Shown: positions 973-56,570 of the stretch, in pieces
How positions within the stretch are numbered: position 1 is the first letter of the stretch
Layout: the number at the start of each line of letters is the position of its first letter
From: Thozetella sp. PMI_491
Taxonomy: Eukaryota > Ascomycota > Sordariomycetes > Chaetosphaeriales > Chaetosphaeriaceae
Reading direction: 5' to 3'
NCBI GenBank assembly: GCA_021432635.1
Contig: MU270036.1
Coordinates: forward strand, 630,915-694,914
DNA length: 64,000 nt
The notes under the pieces: generated by a model
The model's input: only the letters and a program-made list of their open reading frames with translations
Told to the model about the DNA's origin: nothing
Database searches by the model: none
Translations under genes and position numbers: made by a program

Positions 973-3900
973 TCAGTCTTCCGCTGTATCCACTCCTATA
1001 TTAGCCATAGTTAATGGCTCGGGACTCGGAGGATCTAGTTCTGAGTCCACTACGGTGATTGGGTTTGCCGAGGTGAAAGGACCGGTTAGCGAACTCCTAA
1101 CAAGATCTTCCAGATGCCGCCAGCCACCCCAATAATTACTTTCGTCATCTTCAAGCTCCACCTTTGTCCCCTCGCTCTCTATAGCATCGGTGGCGCTGGC
1201 TGATTCATCCAGGCAACTGACACTTGTGTTCCTAAATGGTGGGCTCCGCTTCTGCGTTGCCTGCTGTTGGACCTCCTCCTCGCTGCCGGCCCACACCCAA
1301 GCTATGTCAGGATTGGCCTGCATATCTGTGCTAACGTAGGCGAGAAGGTCTTCGTCCCTCATGATGTCACCCATAACGGCGTCCTGCCTTGAAGACGGGC
1401 GCGAAGCTTCGCTGGGGCGGTTTAAGGAGGCGTACCTGGCACGCTTGGACGCGAGAGTGGAAATGAAGAAGCCGATGAAGCGCCCACAAGGGATGGCCAC
1501 CTCGCGGCGGTTGCTGATAGCTGCGAGTAGCTTGATACACGCAGTTGCTTCATCGAGGTAGTCACTTAGGATGAGGAAAAGTGAGCATCGGAAAATATGA
1601 GTCGTAAACAGCGCAGAGGCAGCGCCGCTTATGTCCAATGATACATTCTGAATTAACGAGGCGGTCTCTAATGCCGTGCTCGTACATTTTTCGATTGCAG
1701 AGAGCCGCGCCTCGAGTGGGCAGGCCGGACTGAGATTGTGTCTGTGAAGGAGCATACGGGAATGGAGAGGGTAGACGATGGTGCTGAAGAAACCCGGCTG
1801 AGAATGTATTTCAACTGGCGGTTTGGGACATGCCTGGAAGCAGGTATCCAAGTGCTTATCGAAGGAGGCAAGCTTGGTCGGTGGGATGACTGGCGACTTC
1901 ATGGCCTTCCTCAGCGTCTCGAACGACCGTACGACTTGGATGATAGTCAGGAGATACTGAGTAGTGCGACTGTTGTCGTTATGGGGATCTTGTAAATCGA
2001 CGTCATCAACCACTATCGGAAGTTGAGTATCGTAATCCTTGTTGTGAATCATAGCGGGGCGCCCAAATTCGAGAGCTAAGCTCTGGTCGAGGATATAGGC
2101 CATCCACCACGTCCGCCGCCGCATCTCGCCCTCGATGAGCGACCATGGCCCACCCTCGATATGGAGATCAAGGTCCTGCGCGACCTTTATCGCCTGTCCC
2201 AGCATATTCCATGCCGCTGACTTGAGATTAAGCTCATTTAGAGACATGGCAATAAGGAGTAGGGCTCGTGCGTGGTCAAACACAAAGGAGTTGGCAAACG
2301 AGTCGATCACTCCCCGTGCTGCCTTGATCAGAGTTGCCGGCTTGTACGCTTGGTATAAGGTAGAGTCTGTAGTGAAAATAGAGCCCAGTGCCAGTGTTGC
2401 GAAAAACATTGAGACAAACGACGCTGGCATGTTCTGGAGATTGTCCGGCTTGTAGAGATCATTGACTGACTCTTGAAAGTGCTGCCAGGAGATGATACGC
2501 GACAGGGGGGGCGTGTTGGTATAATACGAAGAGATAAGGTTCCCCGCTACGGCTCTCGGGGGTAGTTCCGGTCGCGGGGCACTGTAGATTGGCCTCTTAG
2601 GTCGTCGATGTGGTACCGGTGACCCCCATATTCCCTCAGTAAAGGGTTCCGGGTTGGACCTTGTTTTCACTAGCTCAGGTACCAGCAGCGCTGAGCCCGG
2701 CCGCTGCTTTCTCTCTGGTTGTTCATCAATCCCGGGCAACTGAATCGAGAGTTGCTTCATGCGCACGTCGATATCCCCTTCAAAGTCGTTTATCGATCCG
2801 TACCTCTCATTTATCGTCCGCTTGATGGCCAAGTTCTCACGCCTAAGCCTATCTAGTTGCCTCGCTAGCTCTGCCGGCTTCTGAAAGTATCTTTTGCGTT
2901 GGCCAGTGTCCTGAGTGAACTGGCACTTATCACCCCGACGCACACATGCTGAGCAGCTCGATGTTTCAGTGGCATCACACTCCGCTTCAAGTTTGCGGCA
3001 CGCATCGCAAACGAGAGCCTTTCTCTTTTGGCGGTCTGCCCCCTTAACCTGGGGATTGCTCCACGCCAAACGCTCTTCTTGGGTGAGTTCCGGGTCAAGT
3101 CTCGACGAGTGAAGCTCTGAAAATTCGCCAAAGATGCTGGAACCCACAGCAGAATCGCGTTCGAAGTCAAGAGAACTTTCTAGCTTGGAAGTTGATAGGA
3201 CTGCTTGATCCCACGTGGATGCCTTGCTCATACGATAGCGGGAAGAATCGGGATCAAGATGAGAACTAAACGGATCTGAAATCTGAACAAGGTCAACCGG
3301 TACCTGTCGCTGTAGATTCTCGGTGGTAACGTAGCCGACAAAGGAAATGGCGGGATTTTCGGGAAGGCTATGCCAAACGGCCATCGGCACTCGAAGAATC
3401 GCGAGGTGCGAGAGGCTCCCATACCAACCCTCAACAAAAATCTTCTTGGCATCTAAAGGAGCCTTTAGTAGCCATTCTTGCCACTCCAGCTGGTCAAAAG
3501 AAGATGAGCTGAGCCTGGCCGCGAGAAGCACGTAGGGATATTCGATAGCAGGTCCACATTGTCTGGCTTTCGAACGGTTTAAGTTCGATCCTGGCGATGC
3601 CGTATCCTCTTCATCGAGGCCAGGTGCGGTGCCTGGGAGAGGATGCAAAGCGATTGACTGAAACGACCTCCCACTTGACAAGAAATAATGTACGGGGGTC
3701 CGCCGGCGAGGTGGCTCAAATCTTGGTCGACTCTGCTCATCCAAGGATAGTTTTCCTGTGTTATCGCGTAATATCTCCGGCTTATAGTCGCGAAGAGTGG
3801 CCAAGATGCGCGAATGTATCTCACCAGCGGTGATAGATCGCCTTTCCTGGGCCGCCAATGCGAGCTCGTGGATCAAGAGTGACGTGAATGAGTGAGGTCC

Positions 3901-4739
3901 AACCTCTGCCGCGATAGCCTCGTAGCCTCCGGCGGCTAGGGCTTCAGTGACGCCTTTGGCTGTCAGGCCGCTCCCAGAATGAATCGGATGGCAGCAGTCG
4001 TAAAGTAACAGTACATCACACTCCGACTCTTCTAAAAGTCTGTGGATAGAGAAAGGATGGAGCATGGCAGGGTCCTCGCGTTTCCTTGATCGGGGATGTT
4101 AGCACCAGCAACCTAGATGTCATGCCTCAAAATACAAGCGACTCACGAGGTCCAGACCGGGTAAGTCCCAAGATGCATGCTTGGACGAGCATGCCCGGCA
4201 TAGTAAAATATAAGGAGCGACTTTGTCAACTCGCATTCGTCCAGGAGGCTAGACGTCTTGGCTATAAGCGCTCGTTCCGACTTCTCGGACGGAATCTTCC
4301 AAATGTCCACGTCATAGCGATACACCCTTTCAAAGAGGTCTTTGAGCTGATCGATTTCTGATTCTACGCCGAGGTCGTCTTCCATCCAGCTGGTGAGAAG
4401 GACCTTTACTGCATTATACGGGGATCCCGGAACTTTTCGAGTAGCCCAGCTTGCTTCAAGGGCTGCTTCAAGCTCTGTAGTGAGGCATTGAAGGTCACGA
4501 AGGTGGAATGAAGCCGCAGATGTCTCATGTGTCATCCTGGGAGGTAGTTGGATGAAGCCCTGTTCCGCCAAGAGTCGCTCGTCATTAAAAGGGAGAGGTT
4601 GGGCTGCTGCTAAGTTTACACTGGTCGTGTGCTTCGCCCTTTTGCGGCCGGAGCTTGAGGAGCCTTGCGCCCACCCGCATTGGGGGCACTCATGGTCTAG
4701 GGAACTCATTGGAGGTCTTGAGCTCGGAAGAGAAAACAA
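973..4739 (-). CDS. caspase-like protease fused to Zn2Cys6 fungal transcription factor
   Basis: Two exons: 4739-4147 and 4084-973. The 62 nt intron (4146-4085) has a GTGAGT donor, a GCTAAC branch and an AAG acceptor; splicing keeps frame and gives about 1234 residues. Residues ~100-470 form a fungal caspase-like (peptidase C14-like) unit: His183 in YYAGHA and Cys229 in YDCCH form the dyad, followed by the conserved tail with VLLAARL and a WEEWL-like motif typical of stand-alone fungal homologues. After a ~90-residue linker comes a Zn2Cys6 cluster at ~557-585 (C-x2-C-x6-C...C-x2-C-x6-C) with a coiled stretch behind it. A Fungal_trans-type middle homology region then follows (RRRTWWMAYILDQ motif), with an acidic C-terminus. 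Exon 2 is one uninterrupted frame through both halves, so the fusion is a property of the ORF. Start could be M1 or M11. An undetected internal promoter or transcript could still split it. Confidence 0.8.
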
Positions 4740-6347
4740 TGGTGTCGCAAGCCCTTATGGACGTTGGTTTGCAGTGCGAGAAAAGACGAGCTTGTGTCCA
4801 AAGAAAAATCAGCTGTGGCCGATGCCTCCCAATTGAGATCCGGGTGGGAGTTCTACAGGGGAGGGTTTCAGCCGCACCTGGTGCTCACAACCATTCGCCA
4901 ATCAACATTCGTCAATGCAGCAATTTTATTCCGTACACACCGAGTACCTTGCTATATACCGCTTCGGTGGCTGAATACGTGTGTTCGGTATGCTGAAACT
5001 CGCCACAAGTTTAACTACCCAGGTACTCTACAGTCAACAGTAGCTTATTGTCGCAGAGTTCCGGCGTCCGAGAACAGGGCAAACAGAGACAGAAGTAGAC
5101 ATGTTTCCAAGGCACGGCACGAGGTCCAAAAAAGACGAATTTGATGTCTTACTATTGCTGGCCTGCCACGGACTTGTGCTTGATCTGGGGCTATCCAGTT
5201 ATATCAATAGCAAGGCAACACTTAAGCTTGCTCTGAGACGCGCTCTCTCGCTGTTGGCTGCCGATCAACTCTCTATTGTTTTCGACCGGCTTCAGCCTAT
5301 CTCCTTATCACATAAATATCGACTTCTACCCGGCAACAACCCCCCCCCCCCACTCGCAATTTATTCATTCCAGTTACCCTGCTCAAAAGGATAAATAGTC
5401 TGCTTAGGACCCCATCCCCAACATTCTGGATACTAGGCAAGTAGAGCATCCCCTTTAGTGAGCTCTCTACTCGCAGTAAACTACCACGAATGGGTTGATC
5501 ATCGGGACCTTTGCGCACCGTGGAGCAAGTGCACCCGAATCAGGACAAAGCTCCTCAGCCACGCCGTTAAGCGGGCAATATAGTTGCCATGAGTCTGGCC
5601 TCCTACCTTTACTGACCTACCACAGACTTTTCTTGGATCAGGAGCCTATCCAGTTGTATCAGAAGCAATACAGTACATAATCTTGGTGTGAAACGTGCTC
5701 TTTCGCTGCTCATCGCAGAGTAGGGTGCATGCTGTTCCCAGACCCAGGGTATCACGTGATTATCCTCGTTCACAATACCTCCTATGTGTTCATACCCCTG
5801 TGTATTCATAGCCTGGAGGCTGGATCTCGTATCGAGGCGAAAATGCGGCACACGGACACGTCCTAAATATTTAAGGTTGTGTGTGAATTAGGCACTATCC
5901 CGGACCCCTTGCCCAGTCCTGCATTGCCGAAACTTCTGGAGGGACAGCCGTCAATATGGAGCACAACCCTGCAACAGCATCACTCCTACCAAGTGAAAAA
6001 TCGGATTGCTCTTTCTGGTACTGCTGCACTGCCTCCCGTTGGATCATGAATGTAAGCTGTAGACGAGTTTCAAAATACTCCAACATGTACCTTGGTGCTC
6101 TGCCAAGAAGTGGCGGAGCCTATCACAGCGACTGGTACACGACAGGTGCCGCGCAGAGGTTGGTGCTTGAGGCCGGATGCTGAGATGGATGCTCTGCGCC
6201 TCCTAACCTCTTCCTCTGATATATTTTTTTTTTCTTTTTCTCCACTTCTACCCCAGCCAAAGCACTCATTACAGGACGCGCACATCTAGACACATTTAGA
6301 CGTACCTACCATCATCCCCGGACGTGTTTTGTTTGAAGTATGCAAAG
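4740..6347. other. intergenic 1.6 kb, divergent promoters
   Basis: This lies between two divergently transcribed genes. It contains an 11-C homopolymer near 5341 and a T-rich tract near 6222. The short ORFs show no family signal or codon bias. No RNA gene was recognised. Confidence 0.5.
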
Positions 6348-7294
6348 ATGACCCTGCCGGAGCTTCTGGACAACTGCGTGCGATGGTATGTGTAAACCGG
6401 CAGGCTAGGCAGCAACTGCCGATGTCCGTCGAGGCTGACGTGTTACGGATAGGCTCCTCGTGCTTGCCACCATCGCGTCGTTCGCTCCCCAGATCCGGCG
6501 GGTGATGTCGCAAAAAAGCTGTGACGGCATTTGTCTCTATTACGTCTTGTTCATTACCATTTCCGCTGCCGAGCAATTCACCATCTTTAGCCACTTCCTC
6601 GCCTTCCACGATGACTACCCGTCCGATATCGTGCACCTGATTCCGACTCTTGGAGATTGGCTGAACTGGTGCCAGTTCGCCGTGATGTTGCTCTGCAGCT
6701 TGGTATTGTATGGCTTCCTTGCGCCCCGGCTCCGGATGGGGACGCCAGCTGACTATCCGGTCTAGTTTTGTACTTTGCATCAGATATTCGCCGCCCCGAG
6801 ATGGCGAGAGAGTGATCGCCATCACAATGTTTGTGATGTTCGCGCTGGCGAGCTTGGTTCCACTCGCCGTCGAAGTCCTCCCACCGGTCCGGAACCGCCC
6901 ACAGCGCGACCATGGTGTAATTTGGTTCTCGTTCGACGAGCTCTTCCTCTTATTCCATATCCTCCTCGTAAATATCGGTATCATGGTCGGTCTTATTCTC
7001 TCGCTGTTCTCGCAAGCAGCCATGACCGGGGCGCGTTACACCCCTGGAGCTCTCAGCACCACTGGCTTGGGCGTGCAAGCCGTATTCTTTGTGCTCGTGG
7101 GTGTCTCATGGATGTTGCGCCTCCATGGCAATTCTCAAGATTTCTTCGGCTGGTATGCGTTAGTTGGCTGGGCGGCTATCGACAATATTCTGCTTGGGAT
7201 CGTGCAAGCGGTAGTATTTGTCGTTGCGACGTGCATCCCGCTAGATGATCCAGATGACCGGGCAGCGGAGACACGCCCACTTCTTGCGAGTTGA
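6348..7294 (+). CDS. PQ-loop-type multi-pass membrane protein
   Basis: Three exons: 6348-6385, 6453-6707 and 6784-7294. Introns have donors GTATGT and GTATGG with acceptors ATAG and CAG, and phases match, giving 267 residues. The N-terminus carries one clear PQ-loop signature (FAPQIRRVMSQKSCDG, Pro25-Gln26), as in lysosomal/vacuolar cystinosin-type transporters and KDEL-receptor relatives. About six or seven hydrophobic segments follow, and the C-terminus is short, acidic and cytosolic-looking. A second canonical PQ loop is not obvious, so substrate transport cannot be claimed. The start was chosen at 6348 because the ATG at 6340 meets a stop after three codons. Confidence 0.75.
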
Positions 7295-16680: not shown

Positions 16681-19600
16681 ATGGGACCCTCTCGCAGAGC
16701 TTCCGGGCTCTCGCTCTCGGCCATTGGCCTTGCTCTGGTGTGTATTCTCCCTCAGGACGCTGGCGCCGTGCTTTTTGACGCCGCGAAATCCCCTGGAAAC
16801 GGGTTCTAACAGCTCGCGAAAGGTCTCGCTCTCCAGCGCGGCCGTGTCTCGACGCGCCGTCGGCCCCCCCGCCGTCCTGCCGGGAAGCTGGCAGTACCTT
16901 GGATGCTACGTAGATGTGGCCGGCCGAACCCTCCAGGATGCTTCATACGCTGATGGCGCTGCAATGACGGATGAGTCTTGCATTGCTTTCTGCACGTCCA
17001 AGGGTTTCCAGTATGCCGGCACCGAATACTCGTCTGAGTGCTGTACGACCCCCTCCCCCCTTTCTTTTCCAACCGGCTCGTCGCATCCATGGTTTGCTAA
17101 CCCCTGTCTGCCAGACTGCGGCAGCGCCCTTGCCGCCGGTGCCGGTGTGGCCCCCGCGGCCGAGTGCACCATGGCTTGCTCTGGCGACGCCACCGAGGTC
17201 TGCGGTGGCCCCAGCAGGTTGTCGCTGTTCCACAGCCCCGACCCGGTTGGGCCCCAGCCGAACCCAGGCGTTGATGGCTGGGAGTACATTGGCTGCTACT
17301 CGTGAGTCCTTGCCTGAGAGTATCTCTGGAAGAGCCAAGACTGACGTGCTGTAGGGAGGGCACGACTGGACGCACTCTGTCGACTGCCATTGGCTCCATC
17401 CCGGCCGCCAACATGACCGTGGCGTCGTGCACAACTGCTTGCAAGGCAGCTGGATTCATCCTCGCAGGTCTTGAATATGCCGGCGAATGCTGTGCGTAGC
17501 CCCCGTTGCTGCTTCCAATCTCGTTGCCCCGTTCTCTGTTTGGCATGTGCTAACACTACTCTGCAGATTGCGGCAACACCATTGCCAACGGTGGTAGCTT
17601 GACCACCGGCTGCACTATGCTTTGCAACGGCAACAGCAGCGAGTTCTGTGGCGGACCCAGCCGTATGAATGTCTACGACTACCAGGGCCTGTACAACCCG
17701 ACGGCCGTCCCCTCGACCACTACAGCCGGCCCCACAAACCCCGGTGGTGGTGTCTCGTCGACCGCGCTCCCGACCGCGACCGGCCTGCCCACTGGCTGGA
17801 GCTACCAGGGCTGCTACATCGACGGTGCCAACGGCCGCATCCTCCCCAAGCAAATCGACGACAACCAGCAGAACACGAATGCCGTCTGTGCGGCAGCCTG
17901 CTTCAACCTGGGGTACACCATCTCGGGTACCGAGTACGGCGTGCAGTGCTTCTGCGGTAACGCTACCTTCAACGGCGCCGCCAAGACTGTCGATGCGGAC
18001 TGCAGCACAACGTGCCCGGGCAACACAGCCGAGAAGTGCGGTGCCGGCAACCGGGTGAGCATCTACTCGACTGGCCCACCGCCCGTGTTCCAGGCTCCGG
18101 CCCCGATCCCCAAGATCGGCGACTGGACCTACCAGGGCTGCGCGCAGGACAACATCAACGACAAGCACGTCTTCTTCTGGCAGATCTTCTACAACAACAT
18201 CATGACGCCTCAGATGTGCCTGGACACGTGCGCCAAGTACAAGTACATGGCCGCCGGTCTTGAGTACGGCCAGGAGTGCTACTGCGGTGACCCCGCCAAC
18301 ATTGCCCAGGCTGGCTCTACCTTCCGCCCCGAGACCGAGTGCGACGTCCCCTGCGCCGGCAACGCGAGCGCCATCTGCGGTGGCGGCAGCCGCATGACCA
18401 CCTACTTCTGGACCGGCACGCCCTTCTACTCGTGGTCCTTCCCGACTGGCGCCGCCGCCGGTGAATACCAGATCCTCGTCGGCGACGGCAAGACCGTGCC
18501 CCTCATGACCATGGAGTCGATTACTGGAAAGGTTACCTTCCTGTCCAAGTGGGGTGAGGGTCCGGCCAACGAGACCGGTGCCTACGAGCTGGACCCCTCG
18601 CTGGTTGGCGTCGCTGCCGACCCTTGGAGAGAGCTCCACCTCACCACCGATGTCTTCTGCTCTGCCGGTCTCATCCTGCCCGACAAGGTCGGCCGCCAGC
18701 TCACCGTCGGTGGCTGGGCCGGCAATGCCCTTTTCGGTGTCCGTCTCTACTGGCCCGACGGCTCCGCCGGTGTCTGGGGCACGCACGACTGGCACGAGAA
18801 CCCCGATGAGGTGTTCATCCAGGTGCCGCGCTGGTATCCCACTGCTATGATCATGTCCAACGGCTCGATCCTTGTTATCGGTGGTGAGGTCGGCTCCAAC
18901 GCCGCCGCCCAGCCCAACCTGGAGATCCTGCCGGCCACTGGCACTCCGCCCGTGTACATGGATTGGCTCGACCGTACCAACCCCAACAACCTGTACCCCT
19001 TCACCTTCGTGCTCCCCAGCGGTGGCATCTTCGTCGGCTACTTCAACGAGGCCCGCATCCTCGACCCCGTCACGTTCGCCACCACCAAGACTCTGCCCCT
19101 GATGCCCGGTGGTCCCAACGACAACGGTATGGGTGGCCGAACCTACCCTCTCGAGGGCGCCGCCGTGCTGCTTCCCCAGAGCGCGCCTTACACCGACCCC
19201 ATCGGTGTTCTGATTTGCGGTGGTTCCATTGACGGCCCGCACAACGCCCTGGACAACTGTGTCTCGACTCAGCCGGAGGTGGCCAACCCGGAGTGGGTGC
19301 TTGAGCGTCTGCCCTCGTTCCGCGTCATGGCTTGCATGGCCCCGCTGCCCGACGGCACTTACCTCATCGTCAACGGCGCCGTCCATGGTGTCGCCGGATT
19401 CGGCCTCGCCACAGACCCCAACCTCAACGCGGTCCTCTACGACCCCACCAAGGCGGTCGGCAGCCGTATGACCATCATGGCCAACACGACCATCGCGCGC
19501 CTGTACCACAGCGAGGCCGTCACGCTGCTCGACGGCCGCGTCCTCATCAGCGGCTCGGACCCGCTCGAGCCCGGCGTGAACCCTGAGGAGTACCGTGTCG

Positions 19601-19995
19601 AGGTCTTCGTGCCCCCGTACCTCCTCAGCGGCAAGCCCCGCCCCAGCTTCACCATCACCAACAAGGACTGGACCTACGGCCAGGCCAACATTCCCTTCAC
19701 CCTTGGCGCGGCGGCCCGGAACGGCGCCATCAAAGTCTCGCTGCTCGGTGCTGTGTCCAGCACGCACGGCAACTCGATGGGTGCGCGCACCCTGTTCCCG
19801 GCCTTCAGCTGCACGGGCACGAGCTGCACCGTCACGGCGCCACCCAACTCGCACATCGCGCCGCCGGGATGGTATCAGCTCTTCGTCCTCGACGGTGGCG
19901 TCCCCGCCGTCGGCACCTACGTCCGCATTGGCGGCGACCCGGCCGGGCTCGGCAACTGGCCCAACGTCGGCGGCTTCCAGGTGCCCGGCGTCTAA
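16681..19995 (+). CDS. glyoxal/galactose-oxidase-type copper radical oxidase with four WSC domains
   Basis: Five exons: 16681-16737, 16823-17042, 17115-17301, 17355-17491 and 17567-19995. All junctions are phase-compatible, giving 1009 residues. The signal peptide covers ~1-26. Four WSC carbohydrate-binding domains begin near residues 40, 142, 278 and 386, each with a GCY/GCA start, a C(Y/F)CG core and CGG or CGA near the end. The oxidase domain (glyoxal oxidase N-terminal then DUF1929, CAZy AA5_1-like) follows. The radical/copper residues are visible: Cys in DVFCSAG (~564), Tyr in RWYPTAM (~623), Tyr-His in RLYHSE (~846-847) and His in STHGNSM (~932). It should oxidise aldehydes or alcohols to give H2O2 at the cell wall; WSC domains suggest wall anchoring. 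Strong third-position C/G bias produces long antisense ORFs. Confidence 0.93.
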
Positions 19996-20360
19996 GGAGG
20001 AACGCGTAGGATTCTGGGGAGCGGGAATGGAATAACGAACAGGGTCTGGAGAAAACAGGCGCAGGGATCATGAAGCAATGGAAACATCCATCCCAAGTTT
20101 TCTTGGTAATCTTTTTCTACGTAATGATATTGTCTAAACGCTATATATCCGTTAGAGGCCATCGCCCTTATAGGAGGAAATTGATGGGTTGAAAGGGACA
20201 TGGAACAATCGCTTGCTAGTAGTGGTTCGGCTGTGGAGGATTCACTTCGGGCATCTTTTTGTCTCTGCTTGTATACCCAACTTGTTGTATCATCGGCTTG
20301 GGCGTGGAGGAAGCTGGCCTAGAAACCCTGGTGCACACCAACACTGCCTGCCATGGTGCA

Positions 20361-29945: not shown

Positions 29946-31556
29946 CTATACTCTGCACTGGTCTAGCTGAGATATTACGTGCATAGTCATGCTACAGGTT
30001 AGCTCTTCGTCTGACGTCGTTGCCAGCTTGCGCTCTAAACACAACGTAACAACCCCTGCATAAATACGACCCATTAGGGACGGTAGCTTCTCTCTGGCGG
30101 TCCTCATAAAAATCTCCTGGATCTTGTCTAGAGATTTAGGTTTATTCTTGGACCTCGTGATCTTATCCCGCAAAGGCGTCCAGTAGGCAATCTCGAGAAG
30201 CACAATGCCGAAGCTATAGAGGTCCATACTCTTATCAAATCCATGGACAACATTGGGGTGATAAAAGTAATCCACAGATCCGGAACCATCGGGTCGATTC
30301 CCTAGAGATTCCATATGAACCTCTCGAGAGTTCTCAAACCCAGCGACTAGCGGGCGCCGTAGCGTATCCACATCGGCTTCTGATCCCAGGAAAAGTATAT
30401 TGTCGCTACGGAATGCCTTGTGGAGCCAGTTGGAGTAGTGAAGCATGGCGAGACTTGACGCCAGTCGCTTTGCGAGCTCAAACTTGTGTCCTAGAGGTGG
30501 CACAGGCATTGCGCCCTCAAGCTTCAAGGAGCTCCTCTCAATGATCTGCGACAAAGAAGTCGGGTATCCGCCGGTGGATTTAAAAACTAAACCAATACGA
30601 TGGTTTTCTTCGACGACGCCGATACATTCACCTGTCCCTAAGATTTCCGTGGATGTGTTGTCTAGTATCGTGCTGAGTGTACGAGTACGGTTCAATAGCT
30701 TAGGGACATGAGATTCCAGGACGCCGCTCAGATTAGTCCACTCGACCCAAATGCGCTGGGTCAAGCTGTAAATACCGAAACTCCGAGCCCCGGAGATAGG
30801 TGCCAGCTCTGTAGGAAACTGAAGGTCAGCTTCTGCGATGAGATATGGGGTTGTTATCGTGCCCCGAGCCAGGGAGATTTTTAGCGCCTTTAATTTTGCG
30901 GCGTGGGCGACTTCAGAGCTTGGGCCCTGTGCTAGCCGCGCGAGGTCTACCGGGTTCATGATAGAAGCCAGCACGCGGCCGGGTAGAGTCGTAACGAGGC
31001 TGTCTCTTATCGTGGCCCCAGTCAAGTCTAAAAGGTCCTGATTATATGACCGTAATTTGGATATTACCCCCGTAAAGCAGTCCCTGTTCTTGATGGCCCA
31101 CAACATCCGTTTCTTAAGCGCTCGCGTCTCTTGTGCCCTTCCTTTTGCCACGTCACCATCCAGAGGCAAGCTGAAGGCTTTCTGCACAGATGAAGTGTCA
31201 ACGATGTCGGGAAACGTGACATCGCTGCCGTGGATTTCGATATAATTCCTGGCCTCTTGGTGGAGCTCACGAATTCGCAACACCGTCTCGAGTAAGATTT
31301 TCTTCATGCGATCGCTCTCCTTCTGTAGGGAGCAGTCCTCCGGATTCTCTGTGCGCAGGTTGTGATGGTCTCCCCAGTTTTCAAATATCTGACATTGGAT
31401 ATGGTATTGCAAGGCCAAGTCTTTCATACCCGACTTCGTATAGGCAGCCGCGAAGCTCATGTTGATATAACTTTCAAACAGCAAGTAGGAATCTACTGCT
31501 CCTTTAAAGGCGAGCAGCAGGGCAGCGACCCCGGTAACACTACCCAAGACCTCCAT
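29946..31556 (-). CDS. HeLo-domain protein with C-terminal pseudokinase (MLKL-like layout)
   Basis: Single exon, 536 residues. The first ~210 residues match the HeLo (prion-inhibition and propagation) helical-bundle domain: hydrophobic start MEVLGSVTGVAALLLAF, then the LALQYHIQCQIFENWG helix. HeLo bundles are membrane-damaging cell-death effectors in HET-S and resemble the MLKL four-helix bundle. The C-terminal ~250 residues follow a kinase fold, but the catalytic loop reads HKAFRSDN (379-386). Asp is replaced by Ala381 and Lys by Arg383; the DFG position reads AGFE and no glycine-rich loop is clear, so it is a pseudokinase. The GIVLLEIAYWTPL segment fits kinase helix F. It lies head-to-head with a kinase-ankyrin gene across 0.5 kb. 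Confidence 0.82.
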   Translation of the reverse strand: MEVLGSVTGVAALLLAFKGAVDSYLLFESYINMSFAAAYTKSGMKDLALQYHIQCQIFENWGDHHNLRTENPEDCSLQKESDRMKKILLETVLRIRELHQEARNYIEIHGSDVTFPDIVDTSSVQKAFSLPLDGDVAKGRAQETRALKKRMLWAIKNRDCFTGVISKLRSYNQDLLDLTGATIRDSLVTTLPGRVLASIMNPVDLARLAQGPSSEVAHAAKLKALKISLARGTITTPYLIAEADLQFPTELAPISGARSFGIYSLTQRIWVEWTNLSGVLESHVPKLLNRTRTLSTILDNTSTEILGTGECIGVVEENHRIGLVFKSTGGYPTSLSQIIERSSLKLEGAMPVPPLGHKFELAKRLASSLAMLHYSNWLHKAFRSDNILFLGSEADVDTLRRPLVAGFENSREVHMESLGNRPDGSGSVDYFYHPNVVHGFDKSMDLYSFGIVLLEIAYWTPLRDKITRSKNKPKSLDKIQEIFMRTAREKLPSLMGRIYAGVVTLCLERKLATTSDEELTCSMTMHVISQLDQCRV

Positions 31557-32057
31557 GAAGTATTTCAGGCCAGGACTATCGACTTGAAATTGGTGCTAGA
31601 ATATGAGCAGATTCTGTACCGACTCAGTATGACACTAGGTCGACGTGGCCATCAGAGGAGTGGGTGTGTAGAGAAACATGAGTAAAACGAAACGTCCGAT
31701 TTTTGGGTTGGGCATGATGGCAAGGCATCTTTATTGTGGAGCGGTCAGCGAATGGCCAAGGCATTTCAGCACTTCCGCTATTTCAGACACCCTAGATAGG
31801 GCACTTACCTTACCTAGTTGGTTGTGAATGCATATCAAAACAGGCAGCAGCGGCAATGTAACCCCGCGACCCCGAATACTCATTGGACGGCATCGGGACT
31901 TCGGCATCGTTCCTCTCTCTTCTTGACTCTTGATAATTCTCTGCGGCTACACTGCTCCGCTAATTGCCTTGGCTCCGTCTACCTAATCAACCTTTCCAAT
32001 ACAGTACACCCTGAATTTGCTTTCATTCTCAAGTTGGAACCCTAATTGTCATTTAGG
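31557..32057. promoter_or_regulatory. shared divergent promoter region
   Basis: The 501 bp between the HeLo-pseudokinase ATG (31556, minus) and the first ATG of the kinase-ankyrin gene (32058, plus) must hold both promoters. No exact operator was recognised; CT-rich tracts lie near 31910-31930. Confidence 0.45.
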
Positions 32058-35000
32058 ATGGATACTTTCGATATCTCCTCAAAATCGTTGGCACAGTGCT
32101 CTTCAGAGCCACGGAGCTCAAACTCTTCAGAGTCACATGAAGCTATAGCAGGTCGCAGCGATCTATTCGCTATAGATGAGTCGATCCAAGAGCCTGACAG
32201 CCTCGGCGTTTGGGGGTTCTTGAAGTTTTGCTACACTCTTTCAGGTACCCTTCCAATATCTTGACTCCATTGGGATTGCCGATGATGGCGAGGCAATTAG
32301 CTTCGTTCGGTTTGCCGGCTTCAAGGCTGGCGCTGGATACTCCAGCCAAGTTGTTCGCCACCGCACCACTAGAGAGATTGGGGGAGTGAAGAAAGGGACA
32401 GTGGTTGCGTTGAAGAGATTTCTCTCGAAACCGGAGCACGGGAAAACCGCCGAGGAAGTGGAAGAGCACATACTCAAGGCAGCTAATCGTGAGCTTCTCA
32501 TGCTCTGCCACCCGGTGATGAAGGAGCACGAAAACATCTGCGATATCTACTTCATTGCGTGGACGACAGACAGCCCCTATCCCATTTTCGGGTTAGAACT
32601 AGGAGCCTACGGCACGCTAGAGGATGTTCTAACTTCGACCGGAATGGGCCCGAGTTGGCTCCAGAAGATTAACACCACAATCGATGTAACACTAGGGGTC
32701 GCTGCGATCCACGACAGCGGGCTTATACATGGCGACATTAAGGCTAGCAACATAATTATCCAACATCATGACGAACGGCAGATTGTAGCCAAGCTGATCG
32801 ATTTCGCCGGGTCCGGGATCGCCGACAGGGAGTTATATCGCACCAACCTCTCCCCAACGATAGGAACAGTTCTCTGGTGGCCGCCTGAGTTATGCGTCAA
32901 CCAAGAACAGGTAGATTGGGTAGCAGCCGATATATATTCCTACGGGCTTGTCGTTGCGAGCATATGGGCGAGGGGCGAGGTCTGGCAGTCGACTAAAAGC
33001 CCCAGTGCTTGCTTTCTCAACAAGTTCCTGCCCAAGACTTTAGACCAGTCAGGCATACGCGATAAGCTTTGTGTTATGAAGACGCAGTCAGACCTCAGCC
33101 CTCAAAGTGTTATGAATAGGAGCTGGACCGTCGAGGCGTCTATTAATCCCATTCTGCTGATGACTTTGGGTGCTCTGCCGGTTCAGAGAGCAAATATGCG
33201 TCACCTGGCTTCTCTGGTTATCCCAACACTCTGCCAACTTGCATCTAGGAGGCTTTCCAACAACCGATACACTCCCATCAACTGGCCAAAAGACTGGGAA
33301 AATCGGACTATGGAACAGGAAGAGTTTCCTAATAGTCAATATTTCTTCGCCGACCCTCGCCTACAAAAACTTGCCTACAGCGATCTACGGCGCCGTTCTA
33401 GGTCCATCTACACCATGCTCGGGTATATAAGCGGAAAACTGTCTCCGAATGCCGAGATCGGGACAGAGCATGTTCCATTGATCTCAACATTTTTAGTTTA
33501 CAATGACGAGAATATGGAGTTCCGGGAGTTGGCAGAGGATGCTTACCAAGTCGCAAGGAGTAATCTACTGGGGCTGGGCACAGCCTGTGACGAGGAGCTC
33601 GTGCTCGACTCGCTTTATGCTGCAGCCTTCGGATGCTATCTCCCTGCCATATTCCACGCCCCTCTTGTTTCACGCCAGGAATCCACTCTGTATCCCGCCT
33701 TCATTCAAGGGTACCGGCCGTTTTTACTCAAGGTCAGCGCCATGATGGGGTCTCCGCATTCCTTGCGGGAGCTAAAACGTCACCACCACGACATATATAC
33801 GTCTACGCTGCAATACCTACGCGAGCGTCGCAATAGAATCTTTAAGGGAAACAAGCGAAGTCACATTTGGTTTTCTGTAGCTATGCTCGAAGCACTAGAA
33901 GCATACCCGGCCGAGGACCCTGGAAGCTTCAGTCTAATCGAAGCTCTCCAAAGCCATAATCCAGACCGAGCCCGGCAGCTTATTACATGCGGCGTTGATG
34001 CCTCTATTATAGACGATGAGGGTCTTGGTATCTTCCACCACCTCACCGCTCTCGAGGACGAAGCCGCCGCGTCACTCGCGTCTTTGTGTTTAATGCACGG
34101 GGCAGATATCACTCACAAAGCTCGACCTATCTGGCTACATCAACATTTGGCAGAATTTTGGCCGCTGCCATGGATACCTCTTTTCTGGGCAGTGTGCAGC
34201 GGTATGGAAGCTTACTTCGAAGAGCTACTTCGTCTCCACACCGAACACAAGATCCCCATACCCCAGTATTCCTATTTGCTACTCTATTGCTCGGTAACCC
34301 ACAGCTATAGAGAGCTCGAAAGGCTGCTAAAGATACGGGCGGATCACCCAGAGCTGATACCTCCCATCTGGAACCTCGATTCCTTGAGCCGATCCTTCGG
34401 GGAAACGTTACCTAACCTCGATCCTGACGAGGCAGGAATGGCCAACAACCCGTTTGCCATTTCATCAGAGGCCGGGGCTCTAGACCTTTGCTTCAAGCTC
34501 TGCCTGACTAGTCTCCCCATCACTATAGCCTCTCTAATACTACATGGAACACAAGGAATAGAAGCGGCCCAAAGGAGAACAATGCAGGTTATTCTAGATG
34601 CCGGCGTTGATGCTCTTGAACCGACGGCTCTAAAATTTCTCATCGCAAAGGACGACTACGAATCAATGGAACTGATATGTAGAAGTTTGAACGCACAAGG
34701 GCCCCAAGAGTATGAGAGCAGAGATGAATTGCAAGGATGGCTTGCGACTCTAGCCTCGCTCACCCAAGAGCCCGGCAACTACAATGTATCACCAGTATTC
34801 CGGCACATCGTCCGCCAGAAACTAGCCAGATCCATGCGAACTGAATGCATGAGCGAACTGCTGAAGTTTTGCATGGATTGCCCAGGGATCATGACTAGCA
34901 CAAGGTCGTGCCGGGAAGACGGCTCTATCAGATGCTTTGAGGTGCTGTTGTCTCAGTTCCCTCACCTCGCTAGCTGGGGAAACGACTTGGTTGGTACTCC

Positions 35001-37127
35001 TCTGCAGCGCCGGCGATTGGTACAGGTAGTATTCAATTCGGTCAAGCCCGAGGTTGTCGAAGATTTCACGACTATAGGTGCGGCAGCTCGGCACAAGAAC
35101 GTCCTTTTTCTTGAACGGTTGCTGGATCTTGGGGTGGAGCTCGATCCTGAAGGCTCTGAGGCTCTTCCGCCCCTGTGGTACGCCTTGAAGAGTGCAAATT
35201 TTGAGACTGCAGATCTGGTTTTCCGCCACATGAACGAGAAACAACGCCAAGCGATCAACCAAGAACACCGCGCAGATGGCTGTACAATGGGGGCTAGGGT
35301 TTTGCGTGAGTGGTACAATGAGCATGATATGAGGCTGTTAGAAGCGCTTGATTGGCTGAAGGATCACGGGGCGGAGCAGTTCTCCTGCCGTGGTTTTCCA
35401 GGCTGGAGCCACTTTGTGGCAGGAAGCTCAAATACTCCAACACTGTTGGACCATGATCTTGCGGATGCAAGACTGGCAAGGAAACTATTTCAATGTTACC
35501 CGAGGCAATTGACCGAAGCAGATGTGGACGGGCTACAACCCATCCACTGGGCTGCGATGGGTGGCCAACTTGAAGTTCTCAAGACTCTGCTAGATCTGAA
35601 GACCGATATCAACTGCCAGGTCACACGAGCTAGGAGAGTGAGTCAAACTTTGCGTGGTGGCATAGCCGAAGGGGTGAACACAGCAACATACCGAGACGTT
35701 GATGGCGACGATGCCAATCTAGCCGATCTCACCGACAGCTCTTTACTCGGCAAAACACCCTTAGACATGGTGTTTTATAGCCTGAACATGCTAAGCAGAC
35801 GCTCCGAAGTCGACGAGCACCGATTCTTCAAAAGAGGAACAATAGATCTGGAATATCAGCACCGAAGGCTAGCCAGAGTCATTTTGTTTCTTTGCTCGCA
35901 TGGTGCACAACTGGGCAACAGGGCAGACTCGGTAGAGAGGGTAATTGCAGCACAAGCCATGGGCCGACTGCCAAAACTCGCCAATTTGTTCTATGAAATG
36001 CAGGGAGTGAGTGCCGCACCTTCACTCCAGAACCTGGAGTTCGACATACAAACTATGCTAGATATATACTATCCGATGAGGGGTGAAAGGAAGAGTGCAT
36101 GGCCTAGACTTCTTGAAGGCGACCGAACAAGTCGGCCACAGAAGGAGGTGGGCTTTTCTAAGCGCTGGATGGAGGTGCTATGCACTAAGGTGACGCTTAT
36201 ATCGGACGACTTGGGACGCTTTTCAAGGGTCGTGATGGCGGGAAGAGAGACAGTGAGCCGCAAAATAGTCGAAGAATACCTCCGACCGGCAGAAGCTCGA
36301 GGTATATGCCCTACAGGATATACCCAGTGGTTGAGGAAGACGGCAGATATAAGAAAACGGGTGTGGCGGACACTCATCACAGGTTGTCCATCTGATGCAA
36401 TAGACGAGCCACTGCCGCAATCATGGGCCGCACTCCATACTCGCGGCATGCGACCTATCGGGACTGATCCAAGTATCGAAGAACTACCAGCAATAGGCCA
36501 AATCTTTTGGGTCGGGCGAAACTGGGCATCTCCTGAGGCGGCCGAGGAAATGGGCTCGGCCCTAAGGATTATGTCATGGAATCTCGACCCAAATGGAGGC
36601 AGCGTGGTCGTAGGATTTGAAAGCTCGTGGAGTGGCGAGACGGCTCAGTTCGCTAATATCGGCAGGTCGATAGCCACAAGCATTTCCACAAAAGGGGTTT
36701 TCAAGGTTCTTATTCATGATGATCACGCCGCCATCCAGAGTATTACAACCCATGATAGTATCCTAGCAGGTGGCTATATTGGATTGGTATGCGCGCAGGC
36801 TTCCCCCAATCCAGCAATTCCTAAGCAAACGAGACTAATATTTCATCAAACCAGGCCCATATTCCAGTCTCTTTATTTAATGCGCAAGCGCCTATTGTCC
36901 AAATGGCCGTTAAGATTATAGAGCGTGAGCTAGAAGAGGACATAGGCAGAAGCCACGCAGGTGATCCAGCCTCTCAGATAGCCAAGCGCACTCAGTTCTA
37001 TGACACGATGAAGAAGGCCGTTCATGAAAGCGGCGCGGTTGAATCCGGAACGGACTGGAGAGCTGATGGTTCTCCTAATGTAATGGAAACTGGGTCGTAT
37101 CACTTCTTGTGGAAAAAGGATGCTTAG
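32058..37127 (+). CDS. protein kinase with ankyrin repeats, large
   Basis: The main frame runs from 32245 to 36786. A 68 nt intron (36787-36854, GTATGC donor, CTAAT branch, CAG) joins a final exon 36855-37127. The 5' junction is unresolved. A Ser-rich frame from the ATG at 32058 runs to ~32240, one base out of phase with the kinase frame; no good intron fits, so a one-base frameshift or assembly error is possible. The total is ~1,600-1,670 residues. The kinase domain has the glycine loop GAGYSSQV, Lys in VALKR, HGDIKASN and DFAGS (Asp kept), so it looks catalytically competent. Distal segments include ankyrin-like units: FHHLTALEDEAAASLASLC, PLFWAVCSG, PLWYALKSANFETADLV and QPIHWAAMGGQLEVLKTLL. 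The N-kinase/C-ankyrin order recalls RIPK4/ANKK1, by analogy only. Confidence 0.72.
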
Positions 37128-42035: not shown

Positions 42036-42975
42036 AGTTGCATTATATATATAAAAATAAGTTGTTCGTAGTAATAGTAGACCATACAAATAATAAAGAG
42101 CTAAATAATAGATAATTAGACCTTTACCACTAGGTATCTTACTATAGCTCCCTAATCATTAAAGAGCCAGCTAGTCCTCTTTGATTGAGGCGCCCCACTG
42201 CCTCACTACCTAGTGGCTTCCATAGCTCCCTAATCGTTAGGGAAGGAGCTCTATATAGTCGACAAAACAGCGGCGACGAAGATAGAGGTAGGATAGGCGG
42301 TGCATATCGCCGTGAGCAGCTCAGCGCGGAACAGCTTAGTGGGAACTAGCGGCGTCGTCCGCATCCCGCTGTCAATACGTAGCGGGCCGAGAAACGAGAC
42401 ATTTACAAAAACGCTAGGCCCAAGAACAGAGCAAAACCTATTCTCTAAGGAATAAACAGCTATATTACTCGCATCACGATCGATACTAAAGGTTAAACAC
42501 CGTAGGGTTACGATCGCAGTAAACCAAAAAAATAGCGGTGCTTATAATCAAGAACCCTCGCAGCGGGGACGATACCATGGTCCTGTGGGTGTGGGCGATG
42601 TCGATGGGGCCAGACCGTGCAGCTATGATATCGGCGACAGGCTCCTAGAGCGCCGCCGAAATAGAGGGCAAGTGAAACGCCACCGGCAGGATGAGCTCGA
42701 GTTGTGCGGGCTGCAGGGGTCGTGAATGGCGGTCAGCACCATGCGACACCGGCCAACGACTGAAAATGGTCAGTGCGCGATCATCGCATGCTGCCTCAAG
42801 CACTAACTAGATGGCACCTACGCTGGGGGACATGATGGTGCGTGTCAGCGCCAGACAGCGAGAGGCCCAGCCACCACCGAGTCACGTGTCATGCACTGGC
42901 TCTCAACAAAACCCTCAACAAGTTTCATACAAGAGAGAACTTACACTCTGTCCCGTGTACTCTCTCCGCTACGAA
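42036..42975. other. AT-rich then GC-mixed non-coding stretch
   Basis: At 42040-42260 there are direct repeats of TAGCTCCCTAATC and an inverted pair CCACTAGGTA/TACCTAGTGG about 80 bp apart, suggesting a small decayed element. The 42.26-42.8 kb part has no ORF. No tRNA fold was found. Confidence 0.4.
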
Positions 42976-44907
42976 ATGAGGCTTTTGAATACAGCTACTC
43001 TTCGCCTCGAGACTTTTCTCGTGAGCGAACTTCCGCCGTATGCGATCTTATCGCACACATGGGCTCAAGATGAAGTCCTCTTCGAGGACCTGGAGCCGGC
43101 CAAGAATCCGGTGCTAGGGAAATTGACTACAAACAAGGCGGGCGGCTCTAAACTCGTCCAGAGTGCTAGGCTTGCGGCCCAGGAAGGGTACCAGTACATT
43201 TGGATCGACACATGTTGTATCGACAAGTCGAGCAGTGCTGAGCTATCCGAGGCCATCAATTCCATGTTTCGTTGGTACATGCTTTCGACAGTTTGCTATG
43301 CGTATCTTGCCGATGTGGACGCCACGCCATCGGATACTGCTGCTGTTCTGGACCAGTTTCATCGATGTCGGTGGTTCACACGGGGGTGGACGCTTCAGGA
43401 GCTAATCGCCCCTGGCAACTTGGTATTTTTCAACAAGTCATGGAATCCCATTGGCACGAGAGACAGTCTCAAGTCAAACATTGAGCAAATCTCACAGGTA
43501 CCGAGCCCAATCCTTGCTTCGGACGCGTCGCAAAAGCCAGGGAGTCGCAACCCTCTCCACTACCTATCCCGGGTGAGCGTGTCGACGAGGCTGAGTTGGG
43601 CCGCGCGACGGCAGACCCAGAGAATCGAAGATGAAGCGTATTCGCTCATGGGCATGTTTGGCATCAACATGCCCCTGATATACGGAGAAGGGAGCAATGC
43701 ATTCCAGCGCCTCCAGGAAGAGCTCATCAGGATTTCTGATGATCAGAGCATTCTAGCCTTTCGCAATCCGCGGAGCAACCCCATGCCATACGGGGAGAGG
43801 ATGTTTGCGGAGTCTCCTAGTTGGTTTCTCCCAAATATCGAAGGGACACGGCTCGCCGACGAAGCTGTCCCGATGTCGTGGACAAATAGAGGCCTCGAAC
43901 TCAACGTGCTTCTCTGCAACGGGTTCTTAATGCGGAAAACAATGCGTGGAGAACTCGAAGTCGGCATAGGAACGGCCGGAATCGTCGGCGTCTTACAGTG
44001 CGGTATTAAAGACAAACATCTTTCTCGGATAGGTCTTGAATTATTGCCCTTGAATTATCTCAATACAGGTCCTGACTCGGAGCCGCCTCGCTATTTCAGG
44101 CGCCGCCCGGGTCCAGGCACGGTTCTAGTTTTTGACCCCGACAAAGGAGAGCAAGGCATATGCGAAGACCAAGACGAATGTGAGAGTTGAGCTATCTGTA
44201 TAATTGAGCCGGAAACAATACTGACGGCCCTACTAGCCGGCCCTGTCAAAGTTTCATTTCAGATCCACAGCTTCGTCCCCAAGCGGATCTTCCTCGAGTC
44301 CCCGATGGATCATTCCGTCAAAATCCTGAAGCCCTCGCTACGCCTTCGCCTAGGTGGTGCCAGCGGCGAAAACTATAAGCTCGCCATCGCCGTCCCGCAA
44401 CTAGATTCACGCCGGGTGTCTGCTTCTAGGATTCCTTATTCATGGTGTTTGCTAAATGACCAAGGCGAGAGCTTCTGGGGCTACGCTGTGATAAGAAAAA
44501 GAGCTGCGGCGGGCTTGAAAAAGACCGAAAGCCATATTCATGCGTGCTTTTGGCGCCTGAGTTTCACTCGCGCTACTAACTTGAGAGGCGAGGCGATTTC
44601 TGGCTTAGGAATAATAGCATGCCAGCTTGTTGATAAAGTCGACTTGAGGCGCGGAGACCCCTTCAAGAAAGACCCAACTGCAGGCATTGCCAATATCTTG
44701 TATCACAGCAGCGCGAAAGAGATTGAGCTGGGGGCACCATGCTGTATTTACAACGATGAGGACATCAATATCTCGGCTTTGGTTTCCAAAACCGAGTTTC
44801 TATGCCGGCCGACATATACTCTCACCTTTGATGTCAGCAAGTCAGAGGGAGCTCAAGCAAATGGTGAAATCCCTGTGCAGGGGTCGGACGAACTTGAGCA
44901 ATCTTGA
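42976..44907 (+). CDS. HET-domain (heterokaryon incompatibility) protein
   Basis: Two exons, 42976-44179 and 44237-44907. The 57 nt intron (GTGAGA donor, CTGAC branch, TAG acceptor, phase 1) removes the apparent TGA at 44188-44190, giving 624 residues. I start at MRLLNTATL, the usual HET-E/HET-D-type opening; an in-frame Met at 42811 would add 55 atypical residues. The HET domain is complete: YAILSHTWAQDEVLFEDL, YQYIWIDTCCIDKSSSAELSEAINSMFRWY, CRWFTRGWTLQELIAP, ending in DEAYSLMGMFGINMPLIYGEG and AFQRLQEE. The C-terminal half has no recognised domain. HET proteins trigger incompatibility or death reactions, with the TIR-like HET domain as effector. Confidence 0.87.
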
Positions 44908-55004: not shown

Positions 55005-56228
55005 CTAAAAGGAGTACTGCTTCATAAACCACTCCTCCAAAACTTTTACAGCTTCTGCGTCCCCAAACTTTCTCGCTCTATCTAGAGCTGTCTGTCCACC
55101 GCCGTCGGTAGCATCTATTGCTGCGCCCTTGCTTAATAAAAATCGCAGTGCATCCGCATTGCCATTTCTCGCCGCCGTGTGTAGGGCTGTTTCTCCCGAG
55201 CCTTCCAAATGATCCCGCTGTGCAGCATAATCTATTCGCACCCCGTAGTCGATTAGGAGCTTCAACAATCCCACCCCCCCAGACCGACGTCTACCAAGTG
55301 TAGTCAAGAGAAGGTATGGCGACGGCTGAAGGCCTTTTTGGCGGATCATCTGAAGAAGTCGTTCTACAAGGATGGTGTCGTCGCGCAATGCGCACACGCT
55401 ATGCAATATTGAATCTTCATCCTTTTCTAGATCGAGTCCAGAGTCGAGTAATCGATGGAGGAATACGGACCAACCATCTCCGCCTTCACCTCTTACGTCT
55501 GCAATCGCCGAGAAGATCAATTTAGAACTTGGTATGACCCAGCGAGCAAGTACGAGAGCAAGCCATAATGACCAGGGCCACTCCAGCATGCGGATCTCGA
55601 AGCCCGAAGGCCAAAGCGCGCCATCTCGGAGCCGCCAAAGAGACGGGAAAGGCGCGTCGTTGGCTCTGAAATAAGTCGAATTTGGCTCCGTCAGCATCGA
55701 AGTAGCAAGCTCTGTATTTTTCATAGCGATGGCAGCTAAAACTAGAGCCTGCCGCTGTAGAGGAGTGACCCTAGAGAGTGGGGAGTTGATGTTGAGTCTG
55801 TCAGACAGCTTCATTTCAGAAAAGGTCATGTTCTTGCGACATTTTCGGAGCAGGTGCAACAGTTCCTCAGATGATACATCATCTGGGTTCGTATAAGGCA
55901 TGCACAGCTTGATAGCAGCCGCCAGTGGACCGCCAGGGCCTCGCCTAGTGAGAGCGACAAGGTTCGCAGCACTGGCGTCCTCAGGGTGCCGAACCGGATG
56001 TTCTCGATCGAGATGATGCACTAAAGACTCGAGGAAAACCGGCCAAGTGATCTGGAGTGTGTAATAGTCGTGAGCAGCGCGAAGAAAGCATCCCGGATTC
56101 TCGTCAAGTTCGTCATCTTTTCGAGATGTAAATGTTGCTATAGAGGGGTTGCGACCATGTTGACGCAATTTTGCGGGGTTATTTATATGCAAAATCTCCA
56201 ACCACTTTGAGACAGGGATTATAGGCAT
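55005..56228 (-). CDS. ankyrin-repeat protein
   Basis: Single exon, 407 residues from MPIIPVSKWLEIL (56228); an in-frame Met at 56288 is the alternative. The N-terminal ~300 residues are helical and not recognised. The C-terminus has at least two good ankyrin repeats (GETALHTAARNGNADALRFL and GQTALDRARKFGDAEAVKVL), preceded by weaker ones (LLKLLIDYGVRID). The frame is intact, unlike the ankyrin array at 51.6-53 kb. Probably a protein-protein scaffold. Confidence 0.75.
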   Translation of the reverse strand: MPIIPVSKWLEILHINNPAKLRQHGRNPSIATFTSRKDDELDENPGCFLRAAHDYYTLQITWPVFLESLVHHLDREHPVRHPEDASAANLVALTRRGPGGPLAAAIKLCMPYTNPDDVSSEELLHLLRKCRKNMTFSEMKLSDRLNINSPLSRVTPLQRQALVLAAIAMKNTELATSMLTEPNSTYFRANDAPFPSLWRLRDGALWPSGFEIRMLEWPWSLWLALVLARWVIPSSKLIFSAIADVRGEGGDGWSVFLHRLLDSGLDLEKDEDSILHSVCALRDDTILVERLLQMIRQKGLQPSPYLLLTTLGRRRSGGVGLLKLLIDYGVRIDYAAQRDHLEGSGETALHTAARNGNADALRFLLSKGAAIDATDGGGQTALDRARKFGDAEAVKVLEEWFMKQYSF

Positions 56229-56570
56229 GGTCGAAGACCGAGATGGGTACAATGGTATGGCAGCTGTGAGTCTACAAGAGGGTGGCATGGACGGAATGGG
56301 TGCGGTGGGGAGGTCTAAACTATTTCACTGCCAGACGGCCGCTCGGCAAGGCTGCGTTGGGTGCCTATGCGACGGGCTCTGACCTGCGGGATATGCCTCA
56401 GAATCAGCCTGTTCATTTTTACTCTATTGAATGCGTCCCTTTTTGGGAGAATAGCCGAGACTTCCAGGCGACAGTTTTGTACCTCTTGACCTCCAGCCGA
56501 ACTAATCATCATCATTCGGTTCGTTCTGCCAATTGATCAGACAAGAATCCTCGCGCGCAGCCAGTAGTTG

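Follow-up and report, generated by a model that had tools for sequence, protein, structure and literature searches.

In animal necroptosis, RIPK3 phosphorylates the pseudokinase MLKL, as set out in a 2025 review (PMC12881547). The review describes HeLo bundles as acting on membranes via their N-terminal helix and the HeLo protein HET-S as serving in heterokaryon incompatibility; it also reports that a protease gene is found clustered with the gasdermin gene in more than 80% of fungal cases, and notes a HELL-kinase/pseudokinase architecture in fungi (section 20). Human MLKL carries GFE and HGK, according to two further papers (PMC5104457, PMC6013482). Here we describe a divergent gene pair in a 64,000-nucleotide stretch of the genome of Thozetella sp. 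PMI_491 (the window, C22:630915-694914), in which one gene encodes a HeLo-pseudokinase and the other a kinase-ankyrin protein. The pair is probably a two-gene, kinase-controlled HeLo cell-death module resembling animal necroptosis, and no report of such a pairing was found in the open-access literature searched. The genome comprises 72.3 Mb in 157 contigs and has the gene content of a fungus, with HeLo, HET and fungal Zn-cluster genes; both recurrence and conservation were examined within it.

Architecture of the gene pair

The HeLo-pseudokinase gene (29946..31556, minus strand) is a single open reading frame (ORF) of 536 aa with its ATG at 31556 and its stop at 29946; the enclosing ORF (29946-31595, minus strand) has its first Met at 31556. 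The product matches HeLo and DUF7580 above the Pfam cut-offs, which are 23.2 bits for HeLo (PF14479), 27 for DUF7580 and 31.7 for Pkinase. The HeLo domain (31011..31544, minus strand; aa 5-182) scores 38.6 bits (1.3e-9). A profile was built from the HeLo segments of C27 and seven paired loci, eight in all; its PDB matches to HET-s/HET-S (2wvn, 2wvo and 2wvq) range from 5.8e-14 to 3.8e-12, and the chain that follows has an E of 0.2. By hydropathy only, the N-terminus is hydrophobic: the top 19-aa stretch of the 216-aa segment begins at aa 3, and in seven of the eight HeLo copies, this one included, the most hydrophobic 19-aa stretch lies within the first 30 residues. The pseudokinase domain (29949..30788, minus strand) has VEWT (30735-30746) for VAIK, HKA for HRD within HKAFRSDN (30399-30422) and GFE for DFG within GFENSR (30324-30341). 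The DUF7580 match covers aa 333-510 (8.3e-11, 42.5 bits), and the Pkinase match that it overlaps is sub-threshold (22.5 bits versus 31.7). No C-terminal prion-forming or PP motif was seen on this protein: its C-terminus is the pseudokinase, and a short-motif scan, with HET-s repeats not searched by profile, found no G.Q.G core in the protein.

The kinase-ankyrin gene (32058..37127, plus strand) has three proposed exons, 32058-32179, 32226-36786 and 36855-37127, which sum to a protein of about 1651 aa. The main ORF (32224-36921, plus strand; 1565 codons) contains a Pkinase match of 3.1e-19, and the protein kinase domain (32329..33000, plus strand) displays the Gly loop GAGYSSQV (32329-32352), VALK within VALKRF (32404-32421), HGDIKASN (32728-32751) and DFAGS (32800-32814), all inside this ORF. 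The repeat region (33874..35616, plus strand) holds a single ankyrin stretch that passes Pfam (35515-35616; aa 1098-1131 of the ORF), the rest being far below the cut-off; two more Ank_2 matches, obtained on segments, reach E 0.03 and 0.074. The proposed 5' end, an ATG at 32058 followed by a 46-nt GT-AG intron (32180-32225), comes from splice signals and from comparison with the C45 paralogue. This intron is short, has a weak donor, is partly based on that paralogue and is a sequence prediction only. A second proposed GT-AG intron of 68 nt (36787-36854) leads into the last exon, which ends at 37127.

The intergenic region common to both starts (31557..32057) measures 501 bp from start to start, compared with 356-640 bp in five other measured pairs, and we infer that it is a bidirectional promoter. 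A preliminary description of this DNA had proposed a HeLo N-domain with a pseudokinase (HKAFRSDN, no DFG) facing, across 501 bp, a kinase that keeps VALKR, HGDIKASN and DFAGS. The first element is borne out by the two Pfam matches, the HET-s profile match and GFE at the DFG position, the kinase by its motifs and the Pkinase score within the main ORF, and the spacing by computation. The C-terminal ankyrin repeats that it ascribed to the kinase are confirmed for one stretch, the plural being generous given the remaining matches. There is no sign of the pseudogene that an unresolved 5' end might have indicated, and the ATG at 32058 and the 46-nt intron can explain that end.

Recurrence of the divergent arrangement and its relatives

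The divergent kinase-ankyrin/pseudokinase arrangement is found at nine loci, C22 (the window), C45, C10, C3, C76, C71, C75, C92 and C20, with HeLo present at eight of them and no HeLo match at C20. The genome match lists give minimum counts: neither kinase list contains the C92 kinase, which was found via protein searches, and C75, C92 and C20 were added through DUF7580 and protein searches. Both the kinase domain and the ankyrin repeats exceed the Pfam cut-off at 9/9 loci. Ankyrin stretches that pass Pfam singly number two at C45 and three or more at C10, C3, C76, C71, C75, C20 and C92; kinase and ankyrins lie within one ORF only at C22 and C45. HeLo exceeds its cut-off at six loci (C22, C45, C10, C3, C76 and C71) and is sub-threshold at C75 (20.1 bits) and C92 (17.7 bits) versus 23.2, C92 being found at 1.2e-11 by the HeLo profile, which was built with C75 and without C92. 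DUF7580 is above the cut-off at five loci (C22, C45, C76, C75 and C92) and below it at four.

Active and dead kinase residues are split between the partners. All nine paired kinases keep HxD together with the Lys two positions further along, and the DFG Asp is kept in all eight whose ORF reaches DFG, the C3 ORF ending before it. Eight of the nine paired pseudokinases have another residue in place of the HRD Asp, and at the DFG position seven have GFE and two have GWE (G[F/W]E in 9/9). The corresponding motif in three unpaired HeLo-pseudokinases is GFD, GFE and, at C27, GYI.

Six of 20 HeLo genes (merged from 22 genome-search entries) have an opposite-strand kinase match 726-1028 bp upstream; by chance, 0.03 such cases would be expected among 20 genes at distances of up to 1.5 kb. 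The kinase matches amount to 137 merged places from two genome kinase searches; for this comparison eight entries of the second list were chosen by eye as missing from the first, and three effector places were added. In the control, which used 140 kinase entries and left out some second-exon entries, a divergent kinase within 4 kb accompanies 0/150 HET matches (the best 150 of 440 candidates). Since the paired copies are mutually related, the excess rejects chance placement, not common descent. For 33 of 45 DUF7580 places the lists show no kinase within 4 kb; C92 falls in this count solely because its kinase is unlisted.

The C22 and C45 copies share 48% identity in their HeLo segments, 53% in the pseudokinase and 51% in the kinase domain, and from these sequences they look like a co-duplicated pair. 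Identity to the window segments is 14-30% for the remaining aligned copies. In the kinase tree, a branch (100/99) separates eight of the nine paired kinases from nine other and three fused kinases, the comparators being a small sample of the 137 kinase places, and the group stays at 100/99 after the kinase-ankyrin gene at C2 is added. C92 is in no tree; L008 was dropped from the trees for want of a domain-cutting motif, as was the L038 kinase from the kinase tree. Comparing HeLo distances across seven loci, among which C22 and C45 are still included, yields r 0.71 (122/5040 permutations) with kinase distances and r 0.80 (70/5040) with pseudokinase distances. No cross-locus match at 1e-3 emerged among 95 ORFs, each of 90 codons or more, that flank the nine loci, a limited test in that several flanks are shorter than 3 kb.

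The C20 locus (L042, C20:138500-146500) has ORFs at 325-1095 and 1099-2589 on the minus strand and 3232-7282 on the plus strand, the kinase and ankyrin ORFs being divergent from the pseudokinase ORF. Between the pseudokinase ORF and an N-terminal ORF lies a single in-frame stop, so this copy may be broken. The N-terminal ORF contains HYGGHG and DCCFAA, read by eye, which we take to be caspase-like motifs; a caspase-like domain is unproven, no Pfam family having reached E 5 and the sole PDB match being irrelevant. C49 (L046, C49:237800-243600) was not counted as a pair: its DUF7580 ORF continues into a subtilisin-like DTG motif, seen by eye, and its kinase, in a divergent ORF of 1098 aa, groups with the C8 kinase outside the paired group.

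At C70 (L043), C47 (L044) and C21 (L045) one ORF encodes both a pseudokinase of the paired type and a kinase that retains HHD and DFG. Within about 3-6 kb of each fused ORF, a family-profile kinase ORF adjoins TPR-repeat ORFs (L050, L051, L052). A HeLo-like linker within the fused ORFs was considered and rejected (hhalign probability 12%).

Several other arrangements were seen in the genome. HET matches at C1:2912684, C27:180922 and C8:986652 have a same-strand kinase match 1.5-1.9 kb away and are possibly kinase-HET genes. At C44 (L037, C44:340000-349900) a 719-aa ORF (2278-4434, plus strand) combines HeLo with a ubiquitin-conjugating enzyme domain, and at C120 (L035, C120:13000-17900) a HeLo ORF (1195-1635, plus strand) is followed by a NACHT-type ORF (2116-3639, plus strand; NPHP3_N, NACHT), perhaps as one HeLo-NLR gene. 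Within the window, a HET-domain ORF (42811-44187, plus strand) lies about 6 kb from the pair, with an ankyrin ORF further on (55008-56324, minus strand). A 923-aa frame at 17299-20067 (minus strand), which has no Pfam match, overlaps an 813-aa ORF on the opposite strand (17554-19995, plus strand).

Comparison with known death systems

The window protein has the features of an MLKL-type pseudokinase, namely its C-terminal position, HKA with no HRD Asp, and GFE for DFG. A profile of ten pseudokinases places mouse MLKL first in PDB (4.2e-10). A profile of nine, from which C27 was excluded on account of its long insert and GYI for GFE, also places MLKL first when unmasked (2.5e-9), whereas masking seven residues around GFE brings LIMK1 to the top (9.1e-10) and MLKL down to 3.5e-6. 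The likeness centres on the degraded metal-binding motif, and because the MLKL lead is lost on masking, a specific kinship to MLKL is unproven. At the sequence level the likeness may stem from common descent or from convergence, both being possible. The HeLo profile matches no MLKL chain in PDB up to E 10, and by sequence the N-domain is not recognisable as the MLKL 4HB.

As for the kinase, its family profile has 1551 PDB matches, of which the top 60 are ULK, LRRK2, IRAK4 and others, with no RIPK. The single window kinase protein does match RIPK3 (3.9e-7), behind PAK4 and others. A short-motif scan for [VI]Q[VILC]G, presumably the RHIM core pattern, found no RHIM-like core in either window protein. 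Of the broader proposals in the preliminary description, head-to-head recurrence has been found, at nine loci and within the same genome; the RIPK4 analogy is reduced to architecture by the family-profile ranking; and the necroptosis-like two-gene death switch retains the HeLo domain, an intact-looking kinase and recurrence, its RIPK likeness being only architectural.

The fungal pair resembles animal RIPK3-MLKL in combining a putative pore-forming helical bundle and a pseudokinase (GFE, no HRD Asp) with a kinase predicted to be active; it differs in that the window kinase is not RIPK-like by family profile and has no RHIM core, and in that the fungal partners are adjacent genes. Compared with HET-S/NWD2 and HELLP/PNT1 as outlined in the review (PMC12881547), the pair is likewise a two-gene cluster in which a HeLo-type executioner adjoins its putative activator. 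However, those systems employ NLR activators and amyloid motifs, whereas in the window pair a kinase that bears an ankyrin region would be the activator and a pseudokinase forms the C-terminal part of the HeLo protein. For the fungal HELL-kinase/pseudokinase proteins, the passages of PMC12881547 consulted make no mention of a kinase-ankyrin partner gene. The gasdermin-protease pairs treated there offer a further parallel, since a repeat-bearing enzyme gene stands beside the gene of its pore-forming target, with kinase and HeLo here in place of protease and gasdermin.

A probable kinase-controlled HeLo module and its alternatives

Against the background of HeLo helix action on membranes, the RIPK3-MLKL precedent and the hydrophobic N-termini, the simplest reading is activation of the HeLo protein by the kinase, by way of the pseudokinase. 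In such a module, the kinase-ankyrin protein would be the sensor-activator, its repeats recognising a cue and licensing the kinase, and the HeLo-pseudokinase would be the executioner, its dead kinase domain both restraining the HeLo bundle and acting as the receiver. The partner kinase would phosphorylate or bind the pseudokinase, and the freed N-terminal helix would insert into the membrane. Phosphorylation, interaction, sensing, autoinhibition, membrane attack and death are steps that we infer. A wider proposal, which we hold as a plausible conjecture that may well fail, is a fungal kinase-to-pseudokinase death pathway in which kinase-ankyrin sensors phosphorylate G[F/W]E receivers bearing interchangeable killer domains, HeLo at eight loci and a candidate caspase-like ORF at C20.

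A number of observations weigh against the kinase-controlled module. The recurrence comes from one genome, and the copies are related and hence not independent. Kinase and ankyrins are separate same-strand ORFs at seven of nine loci, the ankyrin ORF following the kinase ORF, and we assume that these are exons of one gene; the effector halves are also split into separate ORFs at C76, C71 and C20, where one-gene status is again assumed. The C76 pseudokinase retains HKD. In the 9.9 kb read, no divergent kinase of the paired type accompanies the HeLo-pseudokinase genes at C103, C8 and C27; at C8 a different, same-strand kinase lies 3.3 kb upstream. Conversely, the kinase-ankyrin gene at C2 has no pseudokinase or HeLo match within the 7 kb read, and no pseudokinase/HeLo partner occurs within 8 kb of the family-profile kinase at C9, whose ORF carries HND and NFG and lacks an ankyrin match. 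Moreover, the paired genes do not form a single group in the pseudokinase tree, and kinase-pseudokinase distances do not co-vary beyond C22/C45 (eight pairs, r 0.78, 1235/40320 permutations; r 0.11, 1679/5040 when C45 is removed), so that cophylogeny of these partners is unsupported past that pair. The case for the module comes from sequence, namely domains, kept and lost catalytic residues, recurrence, the kinase group and the hydrophobic N-terminus.

Other explanations account for parts of the same data. It is conceivable, if unlikely, that the pseudokinase is a docking adaptor for a kinase that acts as a scaffold or competitor, with HeLo-driven death still controlled and release brought about by oligomerisation or an ankyrin ligand instead of phosphorylation. 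The three fused ORFs (C47, C21 and C70) have both folds together and make simple pairing of kinase folds possible, and kinase catalysis is predicted from sequence alone; yet the paired kinases keep their HxD and DFG residues, which a pure scaffold would not need. That same retention bears on a toxin-antidote or allorecognition system, in which the divergent partner would restrain the HeLo protein and mismatched alleles would kill on fusion, making this a heterokaryon-incompatibility locus and not a sensor cascade. This we consider improbable, since a restrainer need not retain kinase catalysis, although HET-S has such an incompatibility role (PMC12881547) and the copies are highly diverged.

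Adjacency could also be a mere by-product of a much-duplicated ancestral pair whose products have no joint function. All pairs may descend from one ancestor, cophylogeny does not extend beyond C22/C45, and unpaired relatives exist. However, adjacency persists at 14-30% identity with flanks that differ, as far as the short stretches read show, and the active and dead kinase roles remain split within pairs, which leaves this explanation very improbable.

If the wider proposal of a fungal kinase-to-pseudokinase death pathway holds, RIPK-MLKL-like logic would extend beyond animals and be modular. NLR and amyloid signals are known triggers of fungal HeLo executioners, and a kinase-driven version would provide fungi with a kinase half of necroptosis. 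The 2025 review (PMC12881547, section 18) calls for fungal HeLo proteins to be explored more widely, to establish the extent to which necroptosis is conserved. Nine loci in one genome, mostly highly diverged, are ready material for tests of partner specificity, and a kinase-driven HeLo module would render the origin of RIPK-MLKL logic testable.

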